Part shown: in pieces, positions 14,674 through 26,873 of the stretch
How the letters are laid out: the number at the start of each line of letters is the position of its first letter
How positions within the stretch are numbered: position 1 is the stretch's first letter
NCBI GenBank assembly: GCA_030644725.1
Contig: CP130629.1
Location: 4,169,501 to 4,233,500, forward strand
Reading direction: 5' to 3'
DNA length: 64,000 nt
Source of the DNA: Candidatus Electrothrix communis
Lineage (GTDB): Bacteria > Desulfobacterota > Desulfobulbia > Desulfobulbales > Desulfobulbaceae
The notes under the pieces: model-generated
Told to the model about the DNA's origin: nothing
The model's database searches: none
What the model saw: only the letters and a program-made list of their open reading frames with translations
Position numbers and translations under genes: made by a program

Positions 14674-16325
14674 ATTAGTATCTTAATTATTATTTTCGTG
14701 TTTTTTATGGCAAGACTTTTCTACAAAGCCCGTGCAGCAAGGCTCGGGATAATTACCATTTCTTTAAGTTTCAGCCCCATGGTTATAACTTGCTGTCCAA
14801 ACTTTGAAAGATAATATTTGTATGTGTGAGCAATTTTTTTTATCAGCCCATGCACATGAAGCCGTTTAAAAAGGCGAGATATTTGGCCTGAGTTTTTGCC
14901 ATCCCAATACTGACGGATATTTTTATTTTGGAATCCGCTGATGGTGAATTCGCCTCTGGCTATAATCTCAAACAATTTTTGGTCATCATCTGAGAAAAAG
15001 CTGAACCCTTTATAGGGACGATCATTATTCACTATCCTTTTTGTGAGTTTATTTAAATTTTTCACGCCGACTTTCCTGTCGTCTATGGCTGATATAAACT
15101 GTAGGTATCGTTGGTTAGCGGCACACATTAAATCTCGTAATGGGGATAAGCTGTAAATCCCTTTCTTCATAGGAGCCAATTTTTGAGATTCTGTACCATC
15201 TCGATGTTCTACCTTGCGGTAGTGTTTAAAAAAGGAAACATCATTAACCGTAGTTTCAATACGGAGGACTAAACCATGCTTGTCATACATTTTAACAGAA
15301 ACAGGACCCATTGAATGTTTTACTCTGGTACCTTCAATTCTGGTGTTGAAATTGTTGCCCATTTGCCCCTGATAATTACCGTGTAACTTTTTTCCGAAAA
15401 ATGTCGCTATATTGTCCGGTTTTACCGTATGAATTGCCGTCCTTATCAGATTATCGTATATATGTTTTAAATCCTGCTGTCTTTTGAAAACTATATCGGT
15501 GGCATATTCGGCCTGCATAATGCTCCAGTGATAATGCTGCTCAAGTTTTTTATAACAGGACAAAATTTATCCGCGAATATGTTCAGCTTCTCATGAATAA
15601 CATCTACAGTCAGTTGATTATTTATTTCTTGCGCATATTCAAACGATTCTAAATTGATAAACATATTATCAACTTGAGAATGTTTAACTGAGTGCTTTTC
15701 AAGTGCTGATGCAAGATAATTGTGACCATTAAAATATATTTGTAACCGAAAAGGACACCAAGTCGGCACCCTGACATAACAAAGGCCAAGGTCTTCATCA
15801 ATCAGGTAAAAATAATAGTGCAGACATTTACCCTGAGTAAACTTCAGAAAAGTTTTATGTGTTTTTTGTCATGCCACGGCCTGTAAGAGGCACATGGTTC
15901 CATGGCTGAAAAAATATGTACAACCCCTGGATGACGGCCTCGTTCAGTTATAATATCACGTACTCGTTGTTCTTTCCGAAAGTTATTTTTTCGAATGAAA
16001 TCAATGCTCAATTTGTTTTTATTGGCAATATATTCTGCATTGGATCTAATCTCATTACGAAGCGGCTCTGTAAATTTGGTGTAATCAAAAATTCTTATAT
16101 TATTTGCGTAGAGGTAACTTGTCATTCCCTCTGCATAACAAAATCCAGGCAATGTGCCATTGATAACAACTCGATCAAAGCATGAATAAACACCGGAAAT
16201 TTGCTGGTTATATCGTTCTACAAGGGACATGATTAAACCTCCAAGTGAATTTTACTTTCTCGGATAAAATTTAATCATGAGCTAATGTTTTGCCACCTTT
16301 TTGGTTCCGGCTTGTCCGGGTTAGG
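14674..16325 (-). mobile_element. Insertion sequence ISa, copy 1 (frameshifted)
   Basis: 1652 bases nearly identical to 25221-26873. Homology starts at ATTAGTATCTTAATT on the left and stops after GTCCGGGTTAGG on the right. No clear terminal inverted repeat. No target duplication is seen around this copy, whereas copy 2 has a 4-base one. Carries one long minus-strand gene. Confidence 0.8.
14721..16230 (-). pseudogene. ISa transposase-like gene, copy 1, broken by two frameshifts
   Basis: The reconstructed protein is about 500 residues. It starts MSLVERYNQQISGVYSCFD with GGAGGTTTAATC upstream and ends in a winged-helix-like region (SRLFKRLHVHGLIKKIAHTY). I know similar proteins only as putative transposases of unclassified elements; I see no certain DDE triad. 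Two breaks are located by comparison with copy 2: near 15853 (six T, copy 2 has seven) and near 15550 (six T, copy 2 has seven). The third homopolymer, near 15226, is intact here (six A) but short in copy 2. Each copy thus repairs the other's errors. Confidence 0.7.
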
Positions 16326-16481: not shown

Positions 16482-17887
16482 AACCTGTGCGGTTAGCCAT
16501 TTTTTAGTCTAAGCAGCCAGTTTAAAATCAATATCCTTTTCCTCAAACCACTTTCTGTATTCATTATTTTGCTTAAGGGCAGTAATCGTAGCCAAGGCCA
16601 CTGTTCCCTTTTTGGTCCAGCTCATCCCATTATGTTTTTGTCGTTCTGACACAATCAGATCATTCGCCTTTTCACCGACAGCACTCGAATTACAAAGTCC
16701 GAGTTCTTTTCGGGCAGCATAGCAGGGGATATAAGGTCGGTTCCTTTCCAGGTAGGCAATGAGTTTCTCTAATGATTGAACGTTCTTTATATCCTTCTCC
16801 GGGATCTCACGCAAAAACTCAACTGCTTTATCTGTGAGACCGTACCAAAGCAACGGCTTGAGTTTATTGAGAACTTCATTGCGTAATTTCCGACCGTTCA
16901 TTGTTTGACTCAGCAACTCCCCGCACTTCTTACCAAGGTGGTACCAGTCCAATATTATTCCCATATTTTCTTTCCAGGAATAAAAATTTATAATTGCTGT
17001 ATTCAGGACTGTATGACCATCAGTAAAAAACTGGAATCGTTTCCCGGAAAGACCGTTAGCAAGTAAAAAGACATTATAATAGGAAGAAGAGAGGTTATGG
17101 ACGCTCCGTTTAAGACATATTTTGTCCCGTTGTGAGAAAGACGAGCGATTGTGTTATGTGCGTATTTCCTTGTATGCGCGGTTCTTTTCTGCCCCGGAAT
17201 TCTGTTATCTTCCTGTCTTTTTACATTAACATCATCCACCGCTATGTTGATTGTTTCAGAAGGATCCTCGTAGCCTATCGGATTATCTATGTAACCATCA
17301 GAAAAGCCACATACTTCTGTACAAAGAGAGACTGCGTCGTCAATCTTCTCCTGATCCAGAAAAACAGGGACTGATTGAGTATACTCTGGATTCTCTTCTT
17401 GATATATCCCGGTCTCTTCAAAGAAAAAACATCTTGACCGGTGTTGTATCGCACGTCGGCACCCTTCAGGATACTATGAGTAAAGAATGCAAATCGTCCG
17501 GCTTCCCCATCAACTTTATATGGACAACTATTTTGAATTACTTGTTCTCCAGCTTCACTCATCTCACCAGCTTTTTTTTTGAGACACCCCGGTAAGGTGC
17601 TCGGATAAAGCAGACCGTATTGTCGGATATGCGGTTTGTAAAATGGTTTTTTCGCACTTGTCTATACTTACAGCATCTTTCTCACTGATAACCATATTGA
17701 AACTGCCATCTTGCTGCTTCGTCGGGCTATCGCTAATAGATTCGTTACACTCTACAAGTTCAACGCTTACTTTGACTTTATACCCAGTCATTCTGATCCC
17801 TCCACATGAAATATGAGTCTATCCTTCTATAATATTAATCGCATGTCACGCGTGAGGGTAGTGAAAATTAATCTAACCGCACAGGTC
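16482..17887 (-). mobile_element. Insertion sequence ISb, copy 1 (internally deleted)
   Basis: Terminal inverted repeat ACCTGTGCGGTTAG at both ends. A perfect 10-base target duplication GTTTTTATTC lies at 16472-16481 and 17888-17897. It matches 52096-53730 in inverted orientation but lacks about 229 bases, lost near 17428 within the transposase gene. Confidence 0.85.
16509..17791 (-). pseudogene. ISb transposase gene, copy 1, fragmented and deleted
   Basis: Pieces in order: N-terminal MTGYKVKVSVELVEC (17791), then SEAGEQVIQNSCPYKVDGEA, then a DDVNVKRQEDNRIPGQ piece, then GIILDWYHLGKKCGELL to the C-terminal KANDLIVSERQKHNGMSW region. The DWYHL motif and a 'serine-x-x-x-E...R...GMSW...G' end resemble the ISKra4/ISLre2 type of transposases, but I cannot fix the family. 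Frame breaks include a run of nine A and several short T runs, and a 229-base deletion removes the second quarter. Not functional as written. Confidence 0.7.
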
Positions 17888-17969: not shown

Positions 17970-18236
17970 TTATGTTGATTTAAAATCAGTAGTATATTCA
18001 ACAGGGAGTTGTTTAAGGTAAAAATCAAATCGCTCATTATTTATCTGACTGGTTTTATTTTCCGCAATTTCAGCCATCAACGCCATTACTAGCTGAGTTC
18101 TTACAAAATCATCATTACTTGTCTCTTTCATGAGTCGAGCATAGTGATACTCAACAATGGCGGGTTCTCTATTTTCAAGCATCTCGCTAATAATACCATC
18201 AAGCTTTTGATAAACCGCTTCCCTATCAATTTGCAT
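17970..18236 (-). CDS. Small hypothetical protein, possible cassette gene
   Basis: 88 residues, mostly helical, opening MQIDREAVYQKLDGIISEML and acidic overall. No signal peptide or membrane helix. Not recognised. It lies with two other minus-strand accessory genes (18353-18604 and 18773-19540) in a block that looks like captured cassettes. Just upstream, GTTATGT can pair with ACATAAC at its own stop codon, as in integron cassettes, but the site between it and the next gene is too short to be a normal attC. Confidence 0.5.
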   Translation of the reverse strand: MQIDREAVYQKLDGIISEMLENREPAIVEYHYARLMKETSNDDFVRTQLVMALMAEIAENKTSQINNERFDFYLKQLPVEYTTDFKST

Positions 18237-18279
18237 CTCAATTTATTCCACGTTGGCTTTTTCGATAAAGTGCATTGAA

Positions 18280-18299
18280 CATAAAATCCATTATGCGAC
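18280..18299. repeat. Short palindromic motif, copy 2
   Basis: CATAAAATCCATTATGCGAC, between the 83- and 88-residue genes. Confidence 0.6.
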
Positions 18300-18352
18300 A
18301 TAACGCAGCATATGTTAGTTAATTTTAATTCATTGCTTTGAAATACGATTCG

Positions 18353-18604
18353 TTAATTTATAGTTGTATTATCAGTTTTTATATTTTCGATATGCCTTTC
18401 ATCTTTTCTACGGAATCCTTCCTTTACTTTTTCTACAGCAGCTTCTTGCCCATGACTTTTTACTAGTGTTTCCCAAAGCTCTATATTGTCGTTTATGAAT
18501 CCCTCTGCGAACAATTCTAATTCTTCTTCAGTATAAGGAGTCTTCCTGTCATTTGCCGGATCCATCCAAGGAGGATCATCGTTTTTTTTGTTTTTCTTTG
18601 CCAT
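18353..18604 (-). CDS. Small acidic hypothetical protein, possible cassette gene
   Basis: 83 residues beginning MAKKNKKNDDPPWMDPANDR, followed by an amphipathic helical region (YTEEELELFAEGFINDNIELW). I recall the 'PPWMDPANDR-TPYT' opening only from uncharacterised proteins, and no function is known to me. Its ATG lies 19 bases after the right end (GTTAGCC on the minus strand) of the long attC-like hairpin, the position expected for a cassette gene. Confidence 0.55.
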   Translation of the reverse strand: MAKKNKKNDDPPWMDPANDRKTPYTEEELELFAEGFINDNIELWETLVKSHGQEAAVEKVKEGFRRKDERHIENIKTDNTTIN

Positions 18605-18623
18605 TTTTCAGTAATTTTATTTT

Positions 18624-18759
18624 GGCTAACGGTTGACGTGAGCTGAACAAAAGGCCGTTGACCGGGAAGTTCGCCCTACCTTGTAGCCAGTATGCGGGCT
18701 GGTGCGTTCGGAATTCCCGGTACCTTTGGGTTCAGCTCGACAGATTTGTTCAGTATCAA
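18624..18759 (-). other. attC-like recombination site (long imperfect hairpin)
   Basis: Read on the minus strand, TGATACTGAACA is followed by TGTCGAGCTGAAC, a long imperfect stem-loop (ACCGGGAA...TTCCCGGT inside), then GTTCAGCTCACGTCA and finally CCGTTAGCC. The outer arms GAGCTGAAC/GTTCAGCTC pair with an extra base on one side, as in integron attC sites. TGATACTGAACA is the reverse complement of TGTTCAGTATCA found just before the gene it follows (19551-19562), which is the hallmark of a gene cassette. Simple-site consensus is matched only imperfectly. Confidence 0.5.
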
Positions 18760-18772
18760 TTCCACATATTTC

Positions 18773-19540
18773 TTATGTTAGCTCTATAGCAGTTGACCAA
18801 ACTTGATCAAAGAAGGCTCGATCATTATGATCAGGCTCAACCCGCACGGCTTCATTTTTGTCGATTGCATTAAGTGACAGCCCAAGAATTAGAGATTGAT
18901 TTCCATTTAAGAGTAAAAATCTCCTATGCTCTTTAGATGGCATGATTCGGATTTGACCAGTAAAACCAAATTCAGAGGTCCAAGCATCGAATCCTGCGCG
19001 AGTAAGACGAGGAATCCGACCGCCTGTAGTCTTGCTGGTGCTAAGAACGCGAACTCCGTTACTAACTGATCCATTACCAAATGAAAGGATATTAATCAGG
19101 GTTACAAGTGAATTATTTGTTAAATACGGGTCGAACACGGCTTCAATCGAAGCACTACCAATCAATTTGGAAATCGTTGACAAATTGGTTGCCGGTGTCT
19201 TTTCTGATACTCGTGCAGTTGACGGCGTACGTTGCCATAGAGCACCAATGAGTTTTTGAGCTATTGCATCCACTGCTATTATAAGGTCAGACAGACTTGT
19301 GCAATCGACAAATTCAACGATATTATTCATAGAATACCCCTGCACCTGTATTTTTCCATTAGTGATTCTTGGAAATTTAATTATCCGAGACTCGTTAAGC
19401 ACGAGTTCAAAGCCTCCACTGGCATCGCCAATCTGGAAAACTTGATATCCCCTTTGTTGTTGTTGAAGCAAGTAGTCAACGACTTCTTCCTGAGTAATTT
19501 TAGTAATTGGTTTCTCTGGGAAAGGTGAATTATTGGACAT
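18773..19540 (-). CDS. PLD-like domain protein, possible cassette-borne gene
   Basis: 255 residues, AT-rich. The C-terminal half (FDPYLTNNSL..., KEHRRFLLLNGNQSLILGLSLNAIDKNEA) resembles the region of phospholipase-D-fold proteins in which 'HDRFL-ID...-GaSL-d-gk-' forms the active-site strand. Here the His-x-Lys is altered to KEHRR, so catalysis is uncertain. Such proteins occur in mobile and defence-related islands. The start ATG follows AAGGAGCAAAA. It is flanked by a 12-base inverted repeat and an attC-like site on its 3' side. Function unknown; family call tentative. Confidence 0.5.
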   Translation of the reverse strand: MSNNSPFPEKPITKITQEEVVDYLLQQQQRGYQVFQIGDASGGFELVLNESRIIKFPRITNGKIQVQGYSMNNIVEFVDCTSLSDLIIAVDAIAQKLIGALWQRTPSTARVSEKTPATNLSTISKLIGSASIEAVFDPYLTNNSLVTLINILSFGNGSVSNGVRVLSTSKTTGGRIPRLTRAGFDAWTSEFGFTGQIRIMPSKEHRRFLLLNGNQSLILGLSLNAIDKNEAVRVEPDHNDRAFFDQVWSTAIELT

Positions 19541-19682
19541 TTTTGCTCCTTGATACTGAACAGGATATTAAACGGACAAACATGGAAAACAGAGTCATCA
19601 TTCTGTATGAATCAACACTTAACCATATTGAATGAAAAGTAAACATGAAAATGCTGCCGATAGGATGAAATGTACCCACGCC

Positions 19683-20045: not shown

Positions 20046-20900
20046 ATGGCAGAAGAAAAACAATACAGCTGGAATGCAGAAGACTATGCCCGGCATTCCT
20101 CTGCGCAGCAGGGGTGGGCCAGAGAGCTGATCAGCAAGCTGGATTTCCAGGGCTATGAGGCTGTGTTGGATATCGGCTGCGGTGACGGCAAGATAACAGC
20201 AGAAATCGCTGAACATCTGCCAGACGGTGAGGTCCTCGGTGTGGACAGTTCAGAAGCTATGCTGGATCTGGCCCGAGAAGAATTTCCTTGGGCAAAACAC
20301 CCCAATCTTTCCTTCCAGCAGCGGGACGCCAGAGAACTGGCCTATGAAGCAGAGTTTGACATCATCTTTTCCAATGCGGCCCTGCATTGGGTGCAAGATC
20401 ATCGCCCTGTGCTGATCGGCATCAGCAGGGCCTTAAAGCTGGAGGGACGTATTCTCTTGCAAATGGCTGGGAAAGGCAATGCGGCTTCTCTCCATGCCGT
20501 CCTTGACGAGCTCCTCGTTGCGGAAGAATGGCAGCAGTATTTTGTAGGTTTCACCTTTCCTTACGGCTTTCATGAACCTGATGCGTACAAGAAATGGCTG
20601 AAGGAGGTAGGGTTGCATCCGGTCCGGGTGGAGCTCATTGCCAAGGACATGTCGTATCCAGACAGGGCCGGATTGGAGGGCTGGCTGCGCACCACCTGGC
20701 TGCCTTATACGGAGCGGGTTCCGGTTGAGCGCAGAGAGGCCTTTATTACAGAGCTTGTTGATAGATATCTTGCAGAGCATCCCGTGGACAGCAAGGGTCA
20801 TGTGCATGTCGATATGATGCGTCTTGAGGTGGAGGCCAACCTGGGAGAGCGGAGAGATCTATGTCTTATTTCTCTGCCCAGTCCAGCAGGCGTTCCATAG
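20046..20900 (+). CDS. Class I SAM-dependent methyltransferase, trans-aconitate methyltransferase-like
   Basis: 284 residues. Motif I VLDIGCGDGKITAEIA (near residue 40), motif II GVDSSEAMLDLA, then QQRDARELAYEAEFDIIFSNAALHW and the GRILLQMAGKGN strand define a Rossmann methyltransferase. The NAALHWV segment and a C-terminal helical lid with WLRTTWLPYT resemble Tam (trans-aconitate 2-methyltransferase) and related enzymes. The natural substrate cannot be deduced. The ATG has GGGAG upstream. Its 3' end overlaps by 35 bases a convergent membrane-protein gene. Confidence 0.85.
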   Translation: MAEEKQYSWNAEDYARHSSAQQGWARELISKLDFQGYEAVLDIGCGDGKITAEIAEHLPDGEVLGVDSSEAMLDLAREEFPWAKHPNLSFQQRDARELAYEAEFDIIFSNAALHWVQDHRPVLIGISRALKLEGRILLQMAGKGNAASLHAVLDELLVAEEWQQYFVGFTFPYGFHEPDAYKKWLKEVGLHPVRVELIAKDMSYPDRAGLEGWLRTTWLPYTERVPVERREAFITELVDRYLAEHPVDSKGHVHVDMMRLEVEANLGERRDLCLISLPSPAGVP

Positions 20901-21282
20901 AAACCCTGGTGAACCAGCGCAGAAAGATAAGAGAATAGGTCCCGCCGGAAAGATACATGCCGAGCATAAAGACGAGATGGGAAAAGCCGTAGACCAGCGG
21001 GCCACCCACCGCAGCGATCCACGGGTTATGCATCCTGATGGAGAGCAGGCCGCATAGAGCAACAGCGGGCCAGCCCAGAACAAAGCTGAAGGTAATGGCA
21101 AAGACCCCGGCAAGGATCGCGGGCGTGGGTTTTTCTCTAAAGGCGGACAGATCAGCCTCCTCCACAATGGTGGAGCGCACATACTCGGTTGCCCCGATTT
21201 TTTTAATCCCCTGCCTGATCATTTGCGTCATATCGGTTTCAAAAAATAACGAACTATGTTCAATTGCGCGGTATGATGTCAT
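20866..21282 (-). CDS. Small membrane protein, hypothetical
   Basis: 138 residues with three hydrophobic stretches: AILAGVFAITFSFVLGWPAVALCGLLSI, WIAAVGGPLVYGFSHLVFMLGMYLSG and TYSLIFLRWFTRV. The cytoplasmic N-terminus carries a TEYVRSTIVEEADLSAF segment. I do not recognise the family. Convergent 35-base overlap with the methyltransferase. The start is uncertain: an in-frame ATG at 21231 is equally possible, and neither has a good ribosome-binding site. Confidence 0.6.
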   Translation of the reverse strand: MTSYRAIEHSSLFFETDMTQMIRQGIKKIGATEYVRSTIVEEADLSAFREKPTPAILAGVFAITFSFVLGWPAVALCGLLSIRMHNPWIAAVGGPLVYGFSHLVFMLGMYLSGGTYSLIFLRWFTRVSMERLLDWAEK

Positions 21283-21375: not shown

Positions 21376-22116
21376 GTGAAACACGCTGTACACCCTGATT
21401 GCTGGGCCTTTTTTGACCGGATTTACTGCATCTCCCTGCGTGAGCGGGAGGATCGAAGGGCAGCAGCCCGGCAAGAATTTGCTGCGGTGGGCCTGCTGGA
21501 CCGGGTCGAGTTCGTCCTGGTGGAAAAGCATCCTTTATCCCCGGAAAGGGGGATTTTTGAGTCCCACCTGCTCTGCCTGTGCAAAGCCCTTAAGGAAAAC
21601 GCGACCAAAATTCTCCTCTTTGAGGACGATGTTTTTTTTCAGCGTTTTGATGCCCACGCCTTGCACGAAGCCTGTATTTCTCTGGAAAAGGAGGCCGACT
21701 GGAAGGCCCTGTTCCTCGGCTGCATCACCAACGGGAGCAGGAGAACCAAGGAGAGGCATCTGGCCCGGATCCGCTACCGCTGTCTTTCTCACGCCTATGC
21801 CGTGCAGCAATCCTTTGCTGAAGAGCTGGTTCAGGAGGAATGGCGGGATATTCCCTATGATATGCTCTTGCAGCAGTATAACCGTGCGCAACACCGGAAG
21901 CATTTTTACGCCCTCTATCCGCTCTGCGCCTTTCAAGGCCTGGAAGGCACAGATAATGAAACCCTGTACATTGATCGGGCACGGAGGCTCTTCGGAGGCC
22001 TGCCCTTTATCCAGAAAATGAACGAGCTGTACCAGAATCACAAGGTGCCGCTCCTGCTCTCCCATGCAGTAACCCTGCTCCTGCTTGCCCTGCTTATTTA
22101 TTCTTTATCCCAATGA
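21376..22116 (+). CDS. Glycosyltransferase family 25-like protein with C-terminal membrane anchor
   Basis: 246 residues from a GTG. FFDRIYCISLREREDRRAAARQEFAAVGL is the standard opening of GT25 (LPS-type) transferases; GIFESHLLCLCKALKENATKILLFEDDVFF contains the donor/metal-binding acidic motif EDD. Unusually it ends with a single hydrophobic helix (LLLSHAVTLLLLALLIYSL) that would anchor it to the inner membrane. The stop overlaps the start of the MMPL exporter by 4 bases (ATGA), so the two are co-translated and probably act on the same envelope molecule. Confidence 0.78.
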   Translation: MKHAVHPDCWAFFDRIYCISLREREDRRAAARQEFAAVGLLDRVEFVLVEKHPLSPERGIFESHLLCLCKALKENATKILLFEDDVFFQRFDAHALHEACISLEKEADWKALFLGCITNGSRRTKERHLARIRYRCLSHAYAVQQSFAEELVQEEWRDIPYDMLLQQYNRAQHRKHFYALYPLCAFQGLEGTDNETLYIDRARRLFGGLPFIQKMNELYQNHKVPLLLSHAVTLLLLALLIYSLSQ

Positions 22117-25100
22117 TCAATTATAGAAATCTCGTTGTTGTTTTCTGTGTGATTGCTGCGTTGACGGCCCTGGGGCTGTTGCGTGTGCATATTGATACGG
22201 ATGTGGTTCGCTCTCTGCCCTCGCAAGAAAAAATTATTGCTGACGGGCTTCATATCTTTGAGCAGCATCCTATCCACGATCAGATCGCTGTGGACCTCAT
22301 GCTGGAAAAGGCTGATCCTGATCGCTTGGTGGAAATCGGCAGGGTCCTGGAAGAGAAGCTGGAAAAGAGCGGCCTGTTTGCTCAGGTCGGCACGGATTCC
22401 CTTGGTGTCTTAATCCCTGAGCTGGCCCTACATGCGGCCCGCAATCTACCCCAACTCTTTACTGAGGAAGAGCTGAAGAGCGAAATTGCCCCGCTCTTGG
22501 AACCGGATCAGATCGCCCAACACCTCCACAAGCTGTATCAGGATCTCAGCGGCATGGAAGGGATCGGGCAGGCAGAATTCATGGGCATGGATCCTCTTGG
22601 CCTCAAGGATCTTGTCCTGGCCCGCATGGCCCCGCTTGCTCCTTCGCTCAACTCCCGTTTTTATCAGGGCAGCCTGCTTTCCAAGGACGAGCGCCATCTC
22701 CTGGTCACGGCCCGGCCCAAGTCTTCGGGAACAGACACTGCCTCGGCCCGCCAGCTTTCCCGGCTGCTTGCCCAGGCCGAGCAGGAACTTGCCCGGCAAT
22801 ATCCTGATGAGAAGATGCAGCTGACCCCGGTGGGGGGGTACCGAGCCGCCTTGGATAATGAGGAGATCATCCGTCATGATGTGAATCTGGCCCTGGTCCT
22901 GGCTACGGTGGGGATCGCCCTGCTGCTCTATTTCGCCTTTCCCCGCCCTTTGACCGGGTTGCTGGCCTTTGTCCCGGCCCTTGCCGGAACCGGTGCGGCC
23001 CTGTTTGTCTATTCCCTGCTTCATTCCTCCATCTCCATCATGGTGCTGGGCTTTGGTGGTGCCCTCATCTCCATTACGGTGGACCACGGTATTGCCTATC
23101 TCTTGTTTTTGGATCGCCCCCAAGCGACCAAGGGAAAAGAGGCCTCCCATGAGGTACGGGCTATTGCCCTGATGGCGGTTGTCACCTCCATCTGTGCCTT
23201 TCTCATCCTTAGCAGGAGCGGCTTCCCGATCTTTGTCCAGCTTGGCCAGTTCACGGCCCTGGGTATTCTGTTCTCCTATCTTTTTGTCCATACAGTCTTT
23301 CCTTGGGTTTGCCCGACCATGCCAGCCTCGGAGCATACCCGGTCTCTGCTCCTCCGTCGCCTGGTTGATCGCCTGTATAGCACCGGAAAACCAGGGGCTG
23401 TTGCGGCCCTGCTGCTCTTTGTCGGGCTGGCCTTCTTTGCCAAGCCCCAATTCCATGTGGATTTGCGGAGCATGAACACCATGAGTACGGAGACCCAAGC
23501 AGCAGATGCCCTCTTTACCAAGGTATGGGGGGATATGGGTGAGCGGGTTATCCTGATGCGTTCCGCTGACTCCCTTGCAGAGCTGCAAAGCAATAATGAC
23601 CAGCTTCTTGCCAAGGTGGAGGAGGATATCCGGGAGGATGTATTGAGCGGGGCCTTTGTCCCGTCCATGCTCTTTCCGGGCCGAGAACGGGCAGCGGAGA
23701 ATCTCACTGCCTGGCGGACATTCTGGACCGACGAGCGGGTGGAACAGACCCAGAGAGCGTTTAACAGGATCGGTGGGGAATTGGGCTTTTCCCCTACCGC
23801 CTTTTCAGCCTTCTTTACCCAGCTCCGGGTTTCTGAATCGGAATCCGTAGATCATCTTGAGGTGCCTGAGAAGTTTTATGAGTTGCTCGGAATCACCAAG
23901 GATGCGGGACAGAATACGGAGCAGGTGAGGCTGCTCCAATTCCTCACCCTGATTCCTGGAGAAAACTACCAGGCCCCTGCCTTGATGCAGCGCTACGGGC
24001 AGGATGCCAGTATCTTTGATGTGAAGTACTTTACAGAACGGTTGGCAGAGATTCTCTTTACAACCTTTACCAAGATGCTTGTGATCATTGCGGTCAGCGT
24101 GGCCGTACTGCTGGCCTTTTTTTATCTTAATCTGCGTCAGACCCTGCTTACCCTGTTGTCGCCTTTTTTCGCCTATGTTTGCACCCTGGGCACCTTGCGT
24201 CTTCTCGGTCATCCGCTGGATATCCCGGCACTCATGCTTTCCATTGTTATCCTGGGGATGGGGGTTGATTATTCGGTCTTCTGCGTCCGGGCCCATCAAC
24301 GCTATCGGGACCTTGCCCATCCTTCTTATGCCTTGGTGCGAACAGCCGTGTTTATGGCCGGGGCCTCAACTCTGATCGGGTTTGGGGTGCTATGCTTTGC
24401 CGAGCATGCTGTCCTGCGCAGCATCGGTATCACCTCCTTTCTCGGTATCGGCTATTCTCTGGTCGGCACCTTCCTGCTTTTGCCGCCTTTGCTGGATCGA
24501 TTTCTCTTTCCTGATCAGCAGGGAAAGCTCGCAGGTAGAGATACGGATACAGATGTTGATGCTCGCATCCGCCATCGTTACAGATTCTTAGAGGCGTATA
24601 CGAGAATGTTTTCCCGCTTTAAGCTGCGCTATGACCCCATGTTTGCCGATTTGCCGGACATGCTCACCCGTGGACAGCAAGGGCAGGGGGAAATAAGGAC
24701 GGTCATTGATATCGGCTGTGGCTACGGGGTTCCGGCCTGTTGGTGCCTTGAGCAATTTACCGGGGCCGAGGTCTTTGGTATTGATCCTGATCCTGAACGA
24801 GTACGTTCCGCTACTATCGCCTTTGCCGGACAGGGACGAGCGGTCTGTGGCTATGCTCCGGATCTCCCGCCTGTTCCGCGCCCAGCTGATCTTGTGCTCC
24901 TGCTGGATATGTTCCATTATCTTGATGACGAAACAGCGGCGGCGGTGCTACGCAACAGCTTTGCGGCCCTGGGTGAAAACGGCATCCTGGTGACCCGTTT
25001 TGTTATCCGTCCCTCTGGTAAGCTCTCATGGAATTGGTATCTGGAAGACGGGCGCATCAGGTTCGCAGGAGGGCAGGCGTATTATCGTGCTGCTGAAAAG

Positions 25101-25211
25101 ATGGCGGCCTTGATGCGTGAGGCAGGTTTTACGGTTGTTGTCAATGAGGTGTCAGCGGTGAACCGGGAGCTGATCTGGATGGTGGGGAGGAAGGAGAGTG
25201 ATGTCAGCTAG
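22113..25211 (+). CDS. MMPL/RND-family exporter fused to a SAM methyltransferase
   Basis: 1032 residues. Residues 1-800 follow the 12-helix MMPL plan: first helix, periplasmic domain, a five- to six-helix bundle (LVLATVGIALLLYFAF, then FGGALISITVDHGIAYLLFLDRP), a second periplasmic domain, and a second bundle with ILGMGVDYSVFCVRAH. Both bundles carry the acidic residue used for proton coupling. After a linker (about 805-850) a complete class I methyltransferase follows: VIDIGCGYGVPACWCL (near 863), GIDPDPERV, LVLLLDMFHYL. COG4258-type exporters of this kind are linked to lipid or aryl-polyene export; the fused cytoplasmic methyltransferase suggests modification coupled to export. Substrate unknown. 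Confidence 0.85.
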   Translation: MINYRNLVVVFCVIAALTALGLLRVHIDTDVVRSLPSQEKIIADGLHIFEQHPIHDQIAVDLMLEKADPDRLVEIGRVLEEKLEKSGLFAQVGTDSLGVLIPELALHAARNLPQLFTEEELKSEIAPLLEPDQIAQHLHKLYQDLSGMEGIGQAEFMGMDPLGLKDLVLARMAPLAPSLNSRFYQGSLLSKDERHLLVTARPKSSGTDTASARQLSRLLAQAEQELARQYPDEKMQLTPVGGYRAALDNEEIIRHDVNLALVLATVGIALLLYFAFPRPLTGLLAFVPALAGTGAALFVYSLLHSSISIMVLGFGGALISITVDHGIAYLLFLDRPQATKGKEASHEVRAIALMAVVTSICAFLILSRSGFPIFVQLGQFTALGILFSYLFVHTVFPWVCPTMPASEHTRSLLLRRLVDRLYSTGKPGAVAALLLFVGLAFFAKPQFHVDLRSMNTMSTETQAADALFTKVWGDMGERVILMRSADSLAELQSNNDQLLAKVEEDIREDVLSGAFVPSMLFPGRERAAENLTAWRTFWTDERVEQTQRAFNRIGGELGFSPTAFSAFFTQLRVSESESVDHLEVPEKFYELLGITKDAGQNTEQVRLLQFLTLIPGENYQAPALMQRYGQDASIFDVKYFTERLAEILFTTFTKMLVIIAVSVAVLLAFFYLNLRQTLLTLLSPFFAYVCTLGTLRLLGHPLDIPALMLSIVILGMGVDYSVFCVRAHQRYRDLAHPSYALVRTAVFMAGASTLIGFGVLCFAEHAVLRSIGITSFLGIGYSLVGTFLLLPPLLDRFLFPDQQGKLAGRDTDTDVDARIRHRYRFLEAYTRMFSRFKLRYDPMFADLPDMLTRGQQGQGEIRTVIDIGCGYGVPACWCLEQFTGAEVFGIDPDPERVRSATIAFAGQGRAVCGYAPDLPPVPRPADLVLLLDMFHYLDDETAAAVLRNSFAALGENGILVTRFVIRPSGKLSWNWYLEDGRIRFAGGQAYYRAAEKMAALMREAGFTVVVNEVSAVNRELIWMVGRKESDVS

Positions 25212-25220
25212 GGAAAAGGT

Positions 25221-26873
25221 ATTAGTATCTTAATTATTATTTTCGTGTTTTTTATGGCAAGACTTTTCTACAAAGCCCGTGCAGCAAGGCTCGGGATAAT
25301 TACCATTTCTTTAAGTTTCAGCCCCATGGTTATAACTTGCTGTCCAAACTTTGAAAGATAATATTTGTATGTGTGAGCAATTTTTTTTATCAGCCCATGC
25401 ACATGAAGCCGTTTAAAAAGGCGAGATATTTGGCCTGAGTTTTTGCCATCCCAATACTGACGGATATTTTTATTTTGGAATCCGCTGATGGTGAATTCGC
25501 CTCTGGCTATAATCTCAAACAATTTTTGGTCATCATCTGAGAAAAAGCTGAACCCTTTATAGGGACGATCATTATTCACTATCCTTTTTGTGAGTTTATT
25601 TAAATTTTTCACGCCGACTTTCCTGTCGTCTATGGCTGATATAAACTGTAGGTATCGTTGGTTAGCGGCACACATTAAATCTCGTAATGGGGATAAGCTG
25701 TAAATCCCTTTCTTCATAGGAGCCAATTTTTGAGATTCTGTACCATCTCGATGTTCTACCTTGCGGTAGTGTTTAAAAAGGAAACATCATTAACCGTAGT
25801 TTCAATACGGAGGACTAAACCATGCTTGTCATACATTTTAACAGAAACAGGACCCATTGAATGTTTTACTCTGGTACCTTCAATTCTGGTGTTGAAATTG
25901 TTGCCCATTTGCCCCTGATAATTACCGTGTAACTTTTTTCCGAAAAATGTCGCTATATTGTCCGGTTTTACCGTATGAATTGCCGTCCTTATCAGATTAT
26001 CGTATATATGTTTTAAATCCTGCTGTCTTTTGAAAACTATATCGGTGGCATATTCGGCCTGCATAATGCTCCAGTGATAATGCTGCTCAAGTTTTTTTAT
26101 AACAGGACAAAATTTATCCGCGAATATGTTCAGCTTCTCATGAATAACATCTACAGTCAGTTGATTATTTATTTCTTGCGCATATTCAAACGATTCTAAA
26201 TTGATAAACATATTATCAACTTGAGAATGTTTAACTGAGTGCTTTTCAAGTGCTGATGCAAGATAATTGTGACCATTAAAATATATTTGTAACCGAAAAG
26301 GACACCAAGTCGGCACCCTGACATAACAAAGGCCAAGGTCTTCATCAATCAGGTAAAAATAATAGTGCAGACATTTACCCTGAGTAAACTTCAGAAAAGT
26401 TTTATGTGTTTTTTTGTCATGCCACGGCCTGTAAGAGGCACATGGTTCCATGGCTGAAAAAATATGTACAACCCCTGGATGACGGCCTCGTTCAGTTATA
26501 ATATCACGTACTCGTTGTTCTTTCCGAAAGTTATTTTTTCGAATGAAATCAATGCTCAATTTGTTTTTATTGGCAATATATTCTGCATTGGATCTAATCT
26601 CATTACGAAGCGGCTCTGTAAATTTGGTGTAATCAAAAATTCTTATATTATTTGCGTAGAGGTAACTTGTCATTCCCTCTGCATAACAAAATCCAGGCAA
26701 TGTGCCATTGATAACAACTCGATCAAAGCATGAATAAACACCGGAAATTTGCTGGTTATATCGTTCTACAAGGGACATGATTAAACCTCCAAGTGAATTT
26801 TACTTTCTCGGATAAAATTTAATCATGAGCTAATGTTTTGCCACCTTTTTGGTTCCGGCTTGTCCGGGTTAGG
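25221..26873 (-). mobile_element. Insertion sequence ISa, copy 2, with 4-base target duplication
   Basis: 1653 bases nearly identical to 14674-16325. Direct AGGT at 25217-25220 and 26874-26877 brackets the shared segment exactly. It sits 9 bases after the MMPL-methyltransferase stop. Confidence 0.8.
25268..26778 (-). pseudogene. ISa transposase-like gene, copy 2, one frameshift
   Basis: The frame is open from MSLVERYNQQISGVYSCFD (26778) through about 335 codons. It then breaks near 25781, where GTTTAAAAAGG has five A and copy 1 has six. The rest (MAPMKKGIYSLSPLRDLMC to the C-terminus IIPSLAARAL) is intact in another frame. Adding one A restores a full-length protein of about 500 residues, with a C-terminal winged-helix-like end and no recognised catalytic triad. 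Transposase by context: two near-identical copies with sharp borders. Confidence 0.7.

Follow-up and report, generated by a model that had tools for sequence, protein, structure and literature searches.

The finishing and export of aryl polyenes and flexirubins, which are outer-membrane pigments, appear as unsettled in the portions of the literature drawn on here (PMC8253772, PMC3992019). For the aryl-polyene lipid, ApeM has been proposed as the transporter, with the timing of methylation left open in that part of the source (PMC8253772). For flexirubin, export has been proposed to proceed via deacetylase, acyltransferase, LolA, glycosyltransferase, and predicted exporter genes, and a methionine-derived methyl group on the polyene part is described in the corresponding portion of the same work (PMC3992019). 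Here we describe a gene from Candidatus Electrothrix communis that joins an MMPL/RND exporter and a class I S-adenosylmethionine (SAM) methyltransferase in a single chain. It lies in a stretch of 64,000 nucleotides (GCA_030644725.1, contig CP130629.1, positions 4,169,501 to 4,233,500), the whole of which we call the window. With a tailoring enzyme fixed to an exporter, a single protein suffices to test in which order methylation and export occur. We find the fusion to be real and old; its neighbours and co-occurrence patterns suggest that it belongs to a flexirubin/aryl-polyene-type lipid pathway. What may be new, as far as a limited search of the literature on this pathway in the order reaches, is the tight association of the fusion with a dispersed pathway in the Desulfobulbales, an order of sulfate reducers, that bears DarB, DarG, DarH, and two unnamed radical-SAM proteins, with no ammonia-lyase in the window genome.

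An intact and conserved exporter–methyltransferase fusion

An earlier note on this DNA, made from the letters alone, described one uninterrupted frame with both MMPL halves and a class I methyltransferase with a GCGYG and an acidic motif, and the frame and both of its parts were borne out. The translation runs stop-free through the exporter, a short linker, and the methyltransferase (Table 1), and frame 1 of the reverse complement contains stops. A Pfam scan finds MMPL (PF03176) at 51.4 bits (cut-off 20.5) in two stretches. The AlphaFold model, computed from a 33-row alignment, has 12 membrane helices by our count, with large loops after transmembrane helices (TM) 1 and 7 and a Rossmann-type domain at the end. 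Because the large loops follow TM1 and TM7, RND topology would place both termini and the methyltransferase in the cytosol. The fold search returned the HpnN structure 5khn as the best match of the exporter, with MmpL structures also among the matches. The hallmarks of MMPL/RND proteins are thus present: two MMPL halves, 12 TM helices, two large, presumably periplasmic loops, and the TM4 and TM10 aspartates, Asp324 and Asp719, which are candidates for the proton relay familiar from the RND family. The linker region (residues 797–825) is 29–80% identical to that of four relatives, which is below either half.

At the C-terminal end, Pfam recognizes Methyltransf_25 (44.6 bits, cut-off 27, residues 864–957) and Methyltransf_23 (residues 862–1009), and the acidic motif, GIDPD, stands at residue 889. 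Conservation was read from an alignment of 36 of the 66 fused open reading frames (ORFs). The DMFH site, whose Asp932 and His935 may be catalytic, corresponds to DMLHY or DVLHY in 2 Bacteroidota proteins compared below. The best fold match, 9fce_B, has a Z score of 20.2 over 189 residues with a root-mean-square deviation of 2.7, and the best 50 rows shown span Z 18.3–20.2; because these solved class I enzymes are near-tied, the acceptor is not readable from the fold. In an NCBIfam scan the domain reaches no specific acceptor-subfamily cut-off, and among the solved structures no chain was nameable as AmxMT1, which excludes nothing. Against 3 genus-mates, the ratio of nonsynonymous to synonymous substitution rates (dN/dS) is 0.09–0.11 for the exporter and 0.05–0.07 for the methyltransferase, ratios that are rough for 2 of the 3 because dS exceeds 1; purifying selection acts on both halves. 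It is highly improbable, then, that the domain is an inactive structural module or a docking site for acyl carrier protein (ACP). The lack of a named substrate and a relative without the domain (L144, below) would fit such a role, but the methyltransferase's low dN/dS and the invariance of its 4 motif I residues, Asp932, and His935 argue against it.

With the window fusion (P0001) as query, full-length fusions were found in 57 of 193 Desulfobulbales genomes and fragments in 4 more (G060, G126, G165, and G181), which gives 61 fusion-bearing genomes; one fragment lacks the methyltransferase part, that of G165 showing the first exporter half only. Across the phylum, a 33-row profile at E ≤ 1e-100 matched 30 of 395 genomes, of which 19 lie outside Desulfobulbales. 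Neighbourhoods were fetched for 49 of the 61 order genomes and for 18 of the 19 others (17 fused, and the unfused L144). The exporter profile matches 78 ORFs in all fetched loci and the window, 66 of them with a methyltransferase; the other 12 are L079–L088, picked for being without one, L132, one of two halves into which an in-frame TGA splits its gene, and L144.

A tree of 78 exporters (64 fused, 2 from Bacteroidota, 12 unfused) was rooted on Escherichia coli ApeM; the fused ORFs L132 and L145 were too short to include. The fused and Bacteroidota sequences fall into one clade of 67 with a support of 1.0, and 10 unfused exporters, 9 of them with LolA beside them, fall outside it. Because L144 is the only unfused member of this clade, the simplest reading of the sequences is one old fusion event with at least one loss. 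L144 itself (genome G238) is an 807-residue exporter with no methyltransferase remnant in the 20 kb, and it has probably lost the domain.

Two further loci deserve mention. In G230 (L123/L132) an in-frame TGA interrupts an otherwise full-length fusion, by eye in the second periplasmic loop; selenocysteine was rejected there, as the codon aligns with Asn and not Cys. L006, from Hyphomonas, was discarded as a chance match, the frame there reading as a different transporter type.

Table 1. The fusion, its parts, its surroundings, and the dispersed pathway loci of the window genome. Positions are those of the window, except for entries beginning with C1, which refer to the window genome.
Feature	Position	Strand	Evidence or content
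MMPL exporter–class I SAM methyltransferase fusion, 1032 aa	22113..25211	+	Open frame; Pfam; model, mean pLDDT (predicted local confidence) 85.9
Residues 1–440: TM1, predicted first periplasmic domain, TM2–TM7 (boundaries by eye)	22113..23432	+	Model helices, hydropathy
Asp324, TM4, candidate proton relay	23082..23084	+	Asp in 78/78 aligned exporters
Residues 441–798: predicted second periplasmic domain, TM8–TM12	23433..24506	+	Model helices
Asp719, TM10, candidate proton relay	24267..24269	+	Asp in 76/78 aligned exporters
Linker, residues 799–827	24507..24593	+	pLDDT <50 at 803–808 only
Methyltransferase domain, residues 828–1026	24594..25190	+	Pfam; modelled separately, pLDDT 95.1; Z 18–20 to solved class I methyltransferases
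SAM motif I, DIGCGYG, residues 866–872	24708..24728	+	Asp866, Gly868, Gly870, Gly872 invariant in 36 aligned
Asp932–His935 (DMFH), candidate catalytic pair	24906..24917	+	Asp and His invariant in 36 aligned
GT25-like protein, 246 aa, hydrophobic C-terminus	21376..22116	+	PF01755, 30.4 bits over 24, only Pfam match
Small membrane protein (c4), 138 aa, divergent from GT25	20866..21282	-	30/49 order loci; DUF2938 below cut-off
Separate class I methyltransferase, trans-aconitate-methyltransferase/BioC-like below cut-offs	20046..20900	+	Pfam
Pathway, window locus			Small membrane protein, GT25, fusion
Pathway, core cluster	C1:3251-3262k		KS (ketosynthase), PlsC, B12-radical-SAM, SPASM radical-SAM, two radical-SAM, two KS, thioesterase, dehydratase
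Pathway, third locus	C1:3914-3918k		Deacetylase, PagL-like, DarG, DarH
Pathway, fourth locus	C1:3413-3417k		ABC-2 permease, B12-radical-SAM, DarB

Gene neighbours and a proposed dispersed pathway

In the order, a typical array runs from a FabA/ApeI-like dehydratase and ACP through two radical-SAM genes, two ketosynthases (KS), a thioesterase, and a polyketide synthase (PKS)-type dehydratase to the small membrane protein on the opposite strand, GT25, the fusion, and a polysaccharide deacetylase. The counts of neighbours are lower bounds, with about 8–10 kb visible per side and less at contig ends, and the longest-frame ORF calling let antisense frames displace GT25 in L044–L046 and L048 (by eye) and the fusion in G032 (L054, L146). 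Among the 49 fused order loci, a polysaccharide deacetylase is found in at least 37, GT25 in at least 34, the PKS-type dehydratase in at least 31, the small membrane protein in at least 30, KS in at least 29, radical-SAM in at least 23, and thioesterase in at least 21. The 17 fused loci outside the order have GT2 (at least 12), an LpxL-like acyltransferase (at least 12), thioesterase (at least 11), KS (at least 11), and an aromatic ammonia-lyase (at least 10). The recurring lipid/polyketide neighbourhood that the earlier note looked to as support therefore exists, comprising KS, ACP, dehydratase, thioesterase, glycosyltransferase, and deacetylase genes, with acyltransferases outside the order.

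In the window genome the pathway is split over four places (Table 1), and members of three flexirubin-associated families are recognizable in it. DarB reaches NF005293 with 520 bits (cut-off 450) and falls short of the narrower NF053539 (423 under 550), DarG reaches NF053536 with 102 (cut-off 70) and falls short of the narrower flexirubin DarG model (97 under 170), and DarH reaches NF053550 with 461 (cut-off 300). The radical-SAM pair adjoins in the core cluster (L099/L100, G000:C1:3256348-3258362), and its second member, which is better conserved than the fusion, shares 81–93% identity across the order with its L036 relative. Neither protein of the pair has an NCBIfam name over cut-off or a PDB relative at E 0.01. 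Both score slightly below the cut-off of Pfam (24.4 and 28.4 versus 29.5), and they were named also by a CxxxCxxC motif read by eye.

A 332-residue radical-SAM protein served as the marker of this core. Of the 193 order genomes, 59 have both the marker and the fusion and 124 have neither, while the fusion stands alone in 2 and the marker alone in 8 (Fisher p 4e-38, shared ancestry ignored); in the window genome the two genes are about 0.93 Mb apart. Within the window's genus, 4 genomes have both and 3 have neither. DarB exceeds its cut-off in 17 of 19 tested fusion-bearing genomes, which we chose from the 61. Among 19 genomes without the fusion, taken for the most part from the top of the list and with 17 belonging to the family of the window genome, none has DarB over cut-off. 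The 17/19 count leaves out G063, which lacks both the fusion and a DarB over cut-off.

These patterns also bear on an improbable alternative, in which the cargo would be a glycan or glycolipid unrelated to polyenes and the KS and Dar genes would co-occur with the fusion by shared ancestry only. The immediate partners would suit it. The GT25-like gene stops at a TGA within ATGA that overlaps the fusion start, and GT25 stands directly upstream in 32 of the 49 order loci, with a deacetylase directly downstream in 28; no lyase occurs in the window genome, and the co-occurrence statistics ignore ancestry. However, KS, thioesterase, and dehydratase genes recur beside the fusion inside and outside the order, the contrast between genomes with and without the fusion and its marker appears even within one genus, and DarB tracks the fusion.

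Several side observations concern the same genes. G141 has two copies of the second radical-SAM protein. In G061, G067, G163, and G171 the radical-SAM marker occurs with only an unfused MMPL match on the same contig, about 15–28 kb off, and the exporter type has possibly been exchanged there. An unfused LolA-MMPL cluster (L080) contains a B12 radical-SAM gene (18236-19600, minus strand) that matches TIGR04072 (rSAM_ladder_B12) with 604 bits over 360. No Pfam family matches c15, the gene located after the unfused exporters. A link to ladderane genes was also considered, since an earlier study describes synteny between a cluster of Desulfotalea psychrophila and genes of anammox bacteria (PMC2649909).

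Around the fusion itself, the small membrane protein has no family match over cut-off. The separate methyltransferase upstream is present as the earlier note had it, but in the fetched loci it adjoins the fusion only in the window and 3 genus-mates; we therefore reject it as a conserved partner and do not count it in the conserved unit, outside which it probably lies. Two insertion-sequence-like copies of 1654 bp (14674-16325 and 25221-26873) lie in direct orientation, 99.8% identical, with frames split differently, and one frame scanned from each matched no Pfam or NCBIfam family. G115 has the same genes and neither copy at the matching places, so the copies look recent, and delivery of the fusion by a composite transposon was rejected on this ground. 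At 16509-16964 a fragment resembles the C-terminus of ISKra4/ISLre2 transposases, below cut-off.

Apart from these flanking copies, nothing was found to favour an assembly error, a pseudogene, or a chance fusion, an explanation of negligible probability that we reject. The doubt raised at the outset, that the fusion might be unique and a stop might separate its domains, is answered by the open frame and by the full-length homologues in 57 of 193 order genomes and more in the phylum; dN/dS is 0.05–0.11, and G115 keeps the gene without the copies.

Weighing the proposed function

We favour, at a rough probability of 60%, the view that the fusion works in the inner membrane as the exporter for a lipid pathway of the flexirubin/aryl-polyene type, with a tailoring methyltransferase built into it. 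Soluble KS, ACP, and dehydratase enzymes, the two radical-SAM proteins, and the DarB/DarG/DarH set would synthesize an acyl lipid of polyene type at the cytosolic face, and GT25, the deacetylase, and acyltransferases may attach or trim its anchor. The methyltransferase would hang below TM12 by its short linker, on the SAM-containing cytosolic side, and methylate the lipid-bound product. The MMPL part, proton-driven through Asp324 and Asp719, would then move the lipid from the inner membrane towards the outer membrane. What the sequences show is the intact and conserved fusion, its single clade, purifying selection, co-occurrence with the pathway, and conserved SAM and relay residues; transport, an active methyltransferase, one molecule as both cargo and methyl acceptor, the topology, and the chemistry of the product are inferred. 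The earlier note had proposed a unit that modifies and exports a lipid or glycan of the envelope. That proposal is partly supported: it suits the lipid/polyketide neighbours, the ApeM-related exporter, and the co-occurrence with radical-SAM, KS, and DarB genes, and it gives the fusion a putative substrate and a putative activity.

It is also possible, if on the unlikely side, that the exporter moves the pathway lipid and the methyltransferase acts elsewhere, whether on a soluble precursor, on an intermediate bound to ACP, or on the sugar anchor, so that the fusion would serve only to fix stoichiometry and place. The long co-retention of the two parts, with one apparent loss, suits this view, and the clade also includes forms with an inserted acyltransferase, as would be expected of an exporter that scaffolds several enzymes. 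MmpL-AcpM complexes, recognized by their titles among the fold matches, put acyl carrier protein and MmpL transporter together in one assembly. A membrane tether, on the other hand, would be of little use for a freely soluble precursor.

Other findings count against a built-in tailoring step in a flexirubin/aryl-polyene-type pathway. Because the window genome has no PF00221 ammonia-lyase, a tyrosine-derived aryl head is unsupported, and the product may be something other than an aryl polyene. For DarA, the window genome gave no convincing match, only a partial one of 31% over 163 residues to a flavodoxin-like query gene from L063 that we took for DarA and that no DarA model matched. DarB is absent from the fusion-bearing genomes G055 and G011, and 8 genomes have the radical-SAM marker and no fusion. 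LolA-like genes adjoin the fusion in none of the 49 order loci and in 4 of the 17 elsewhere, and a relative of ApeN (DUF3261) was found nowhere in the fetched loci at E 1e-3. Persicobacter has an ApeB-like methyltransferase besides the fused one, and the fused one is not an ApeB orthologue, so the fused enzyme need not methylate an aryl ring. To these points may be added L144, which does without the methyltransferase, the dS values above 1, and structure matches that name no substrate class.

The missing lyase invites a speculative extension, which we consider doubtful. Some Desulfobulbales may have a lyase-free flexirubin-type pathway in which the two radical-SAM proteins replace tyrosine ammonia-lyase in supplying the starter or the polyene, and the exporter's methyltransferase would mark the finished product, making methylation and export one checkpoint. 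Against it, L135 and L141, both outside the order, hold the radical-SAM pair as well as a lyase.

Comparison with described systems

The nearest named relatives of the fusion come from Bacteroidota. Aureispira anguillae WP_264793640.1 is annotated as a "trifunctional MMPL family transporter/lysophospholipid acyltransferase/class I SAM-dependent methyltransferase," and its homologue in Persicobacter psychrovividus, WP_338399298.1, is annotated only as an acyltransferase. Both share the order of MMPL followed by methyltransferase, match the MMPL profile with 290–294 bits over nearly the full length, and fall in the same clade as the window fusion. The methyltransferase profile gives them 75 bits, versus 16–18 for the controls (ApeB, the separate Persicobacter enzyme, and the window's upstream methyltransferase). 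Because both proteins match both profiles, the architecture, presented at first as unfamiliar, is already known by annotation. They differ in length (1267–1292 residues) and in having a PF01553 (PlsC-type) acyltransferase between the halves. The window protein has no PF01553 domain and by sequence is a bifunctional variant, without the middle acyltransferase, of this architecture; a separate PF01553 gene lies in the core cluster of its genome (L103:14380-15129). The Persicobacter gene lies in a cluster of polyene type that contains an aromatic ammonia-lyase, FabG, KS, a chain length factor, ACPs, a lipid A-type acyltransferase, the separate methyltransferase, a thioesterase, a polysaccharide deacetylase, and LolA. 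A protein search of plasmid records gave matches in 9 of 72,556, among them these two proteins, while the other 7 cover only parts of the exporter, and literature searches aimed at an MMPL–methyltransferase fusion found no study of one.

Among single exporters, the hopanoid RND transporter HpnN provides the best fold match, and the window protein scores 67 bits with the HpnN family, far under its cut-off of 752; HpnN is not known to carry a methyltransferase. ApeM, which is the RND transporter in the aryl-polyene cluster of E. coli CFT073, matches the exporter profile at E 8e-30 among 13 cluster proteins and, used as a query at E 1e-3, finds 78 ORFs in the fetched loci. In contrast to the window protein, it has 772 residues and no methyltransferase, and the methyltransferase of its cluster, ApeB, is a separate gene. 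ApeB combines Methyltransf_2 with a dimerisation domain and bears no close relation to the fused methyltransferase. As the origin of the fused domain it was rejected on its 16 bits with the profile, as low as the controls, and as a query it had no match at E 1e-3 in a search limited to the fetched loci.

The flexirubin pathway (flx/dar) of Chitinophaga pinensis resembles the Desulfobulbales system as a whole. The known system belongs to Bacteroidota, whereas the present one occurs in Desulfobulbales, where the genes of the window genome are spread over four loci, two conserved radical-SAM proteins stand in the core, and an ammonia-lyase is lacking. The two have in common members of the DarB, DarG, and DarH families, together with the KS, thioesterase, deacetylase, glycosyltransferase, and predicted exporter genes named for flexirubin in the portion of that study drawn on here (PMC3992019).

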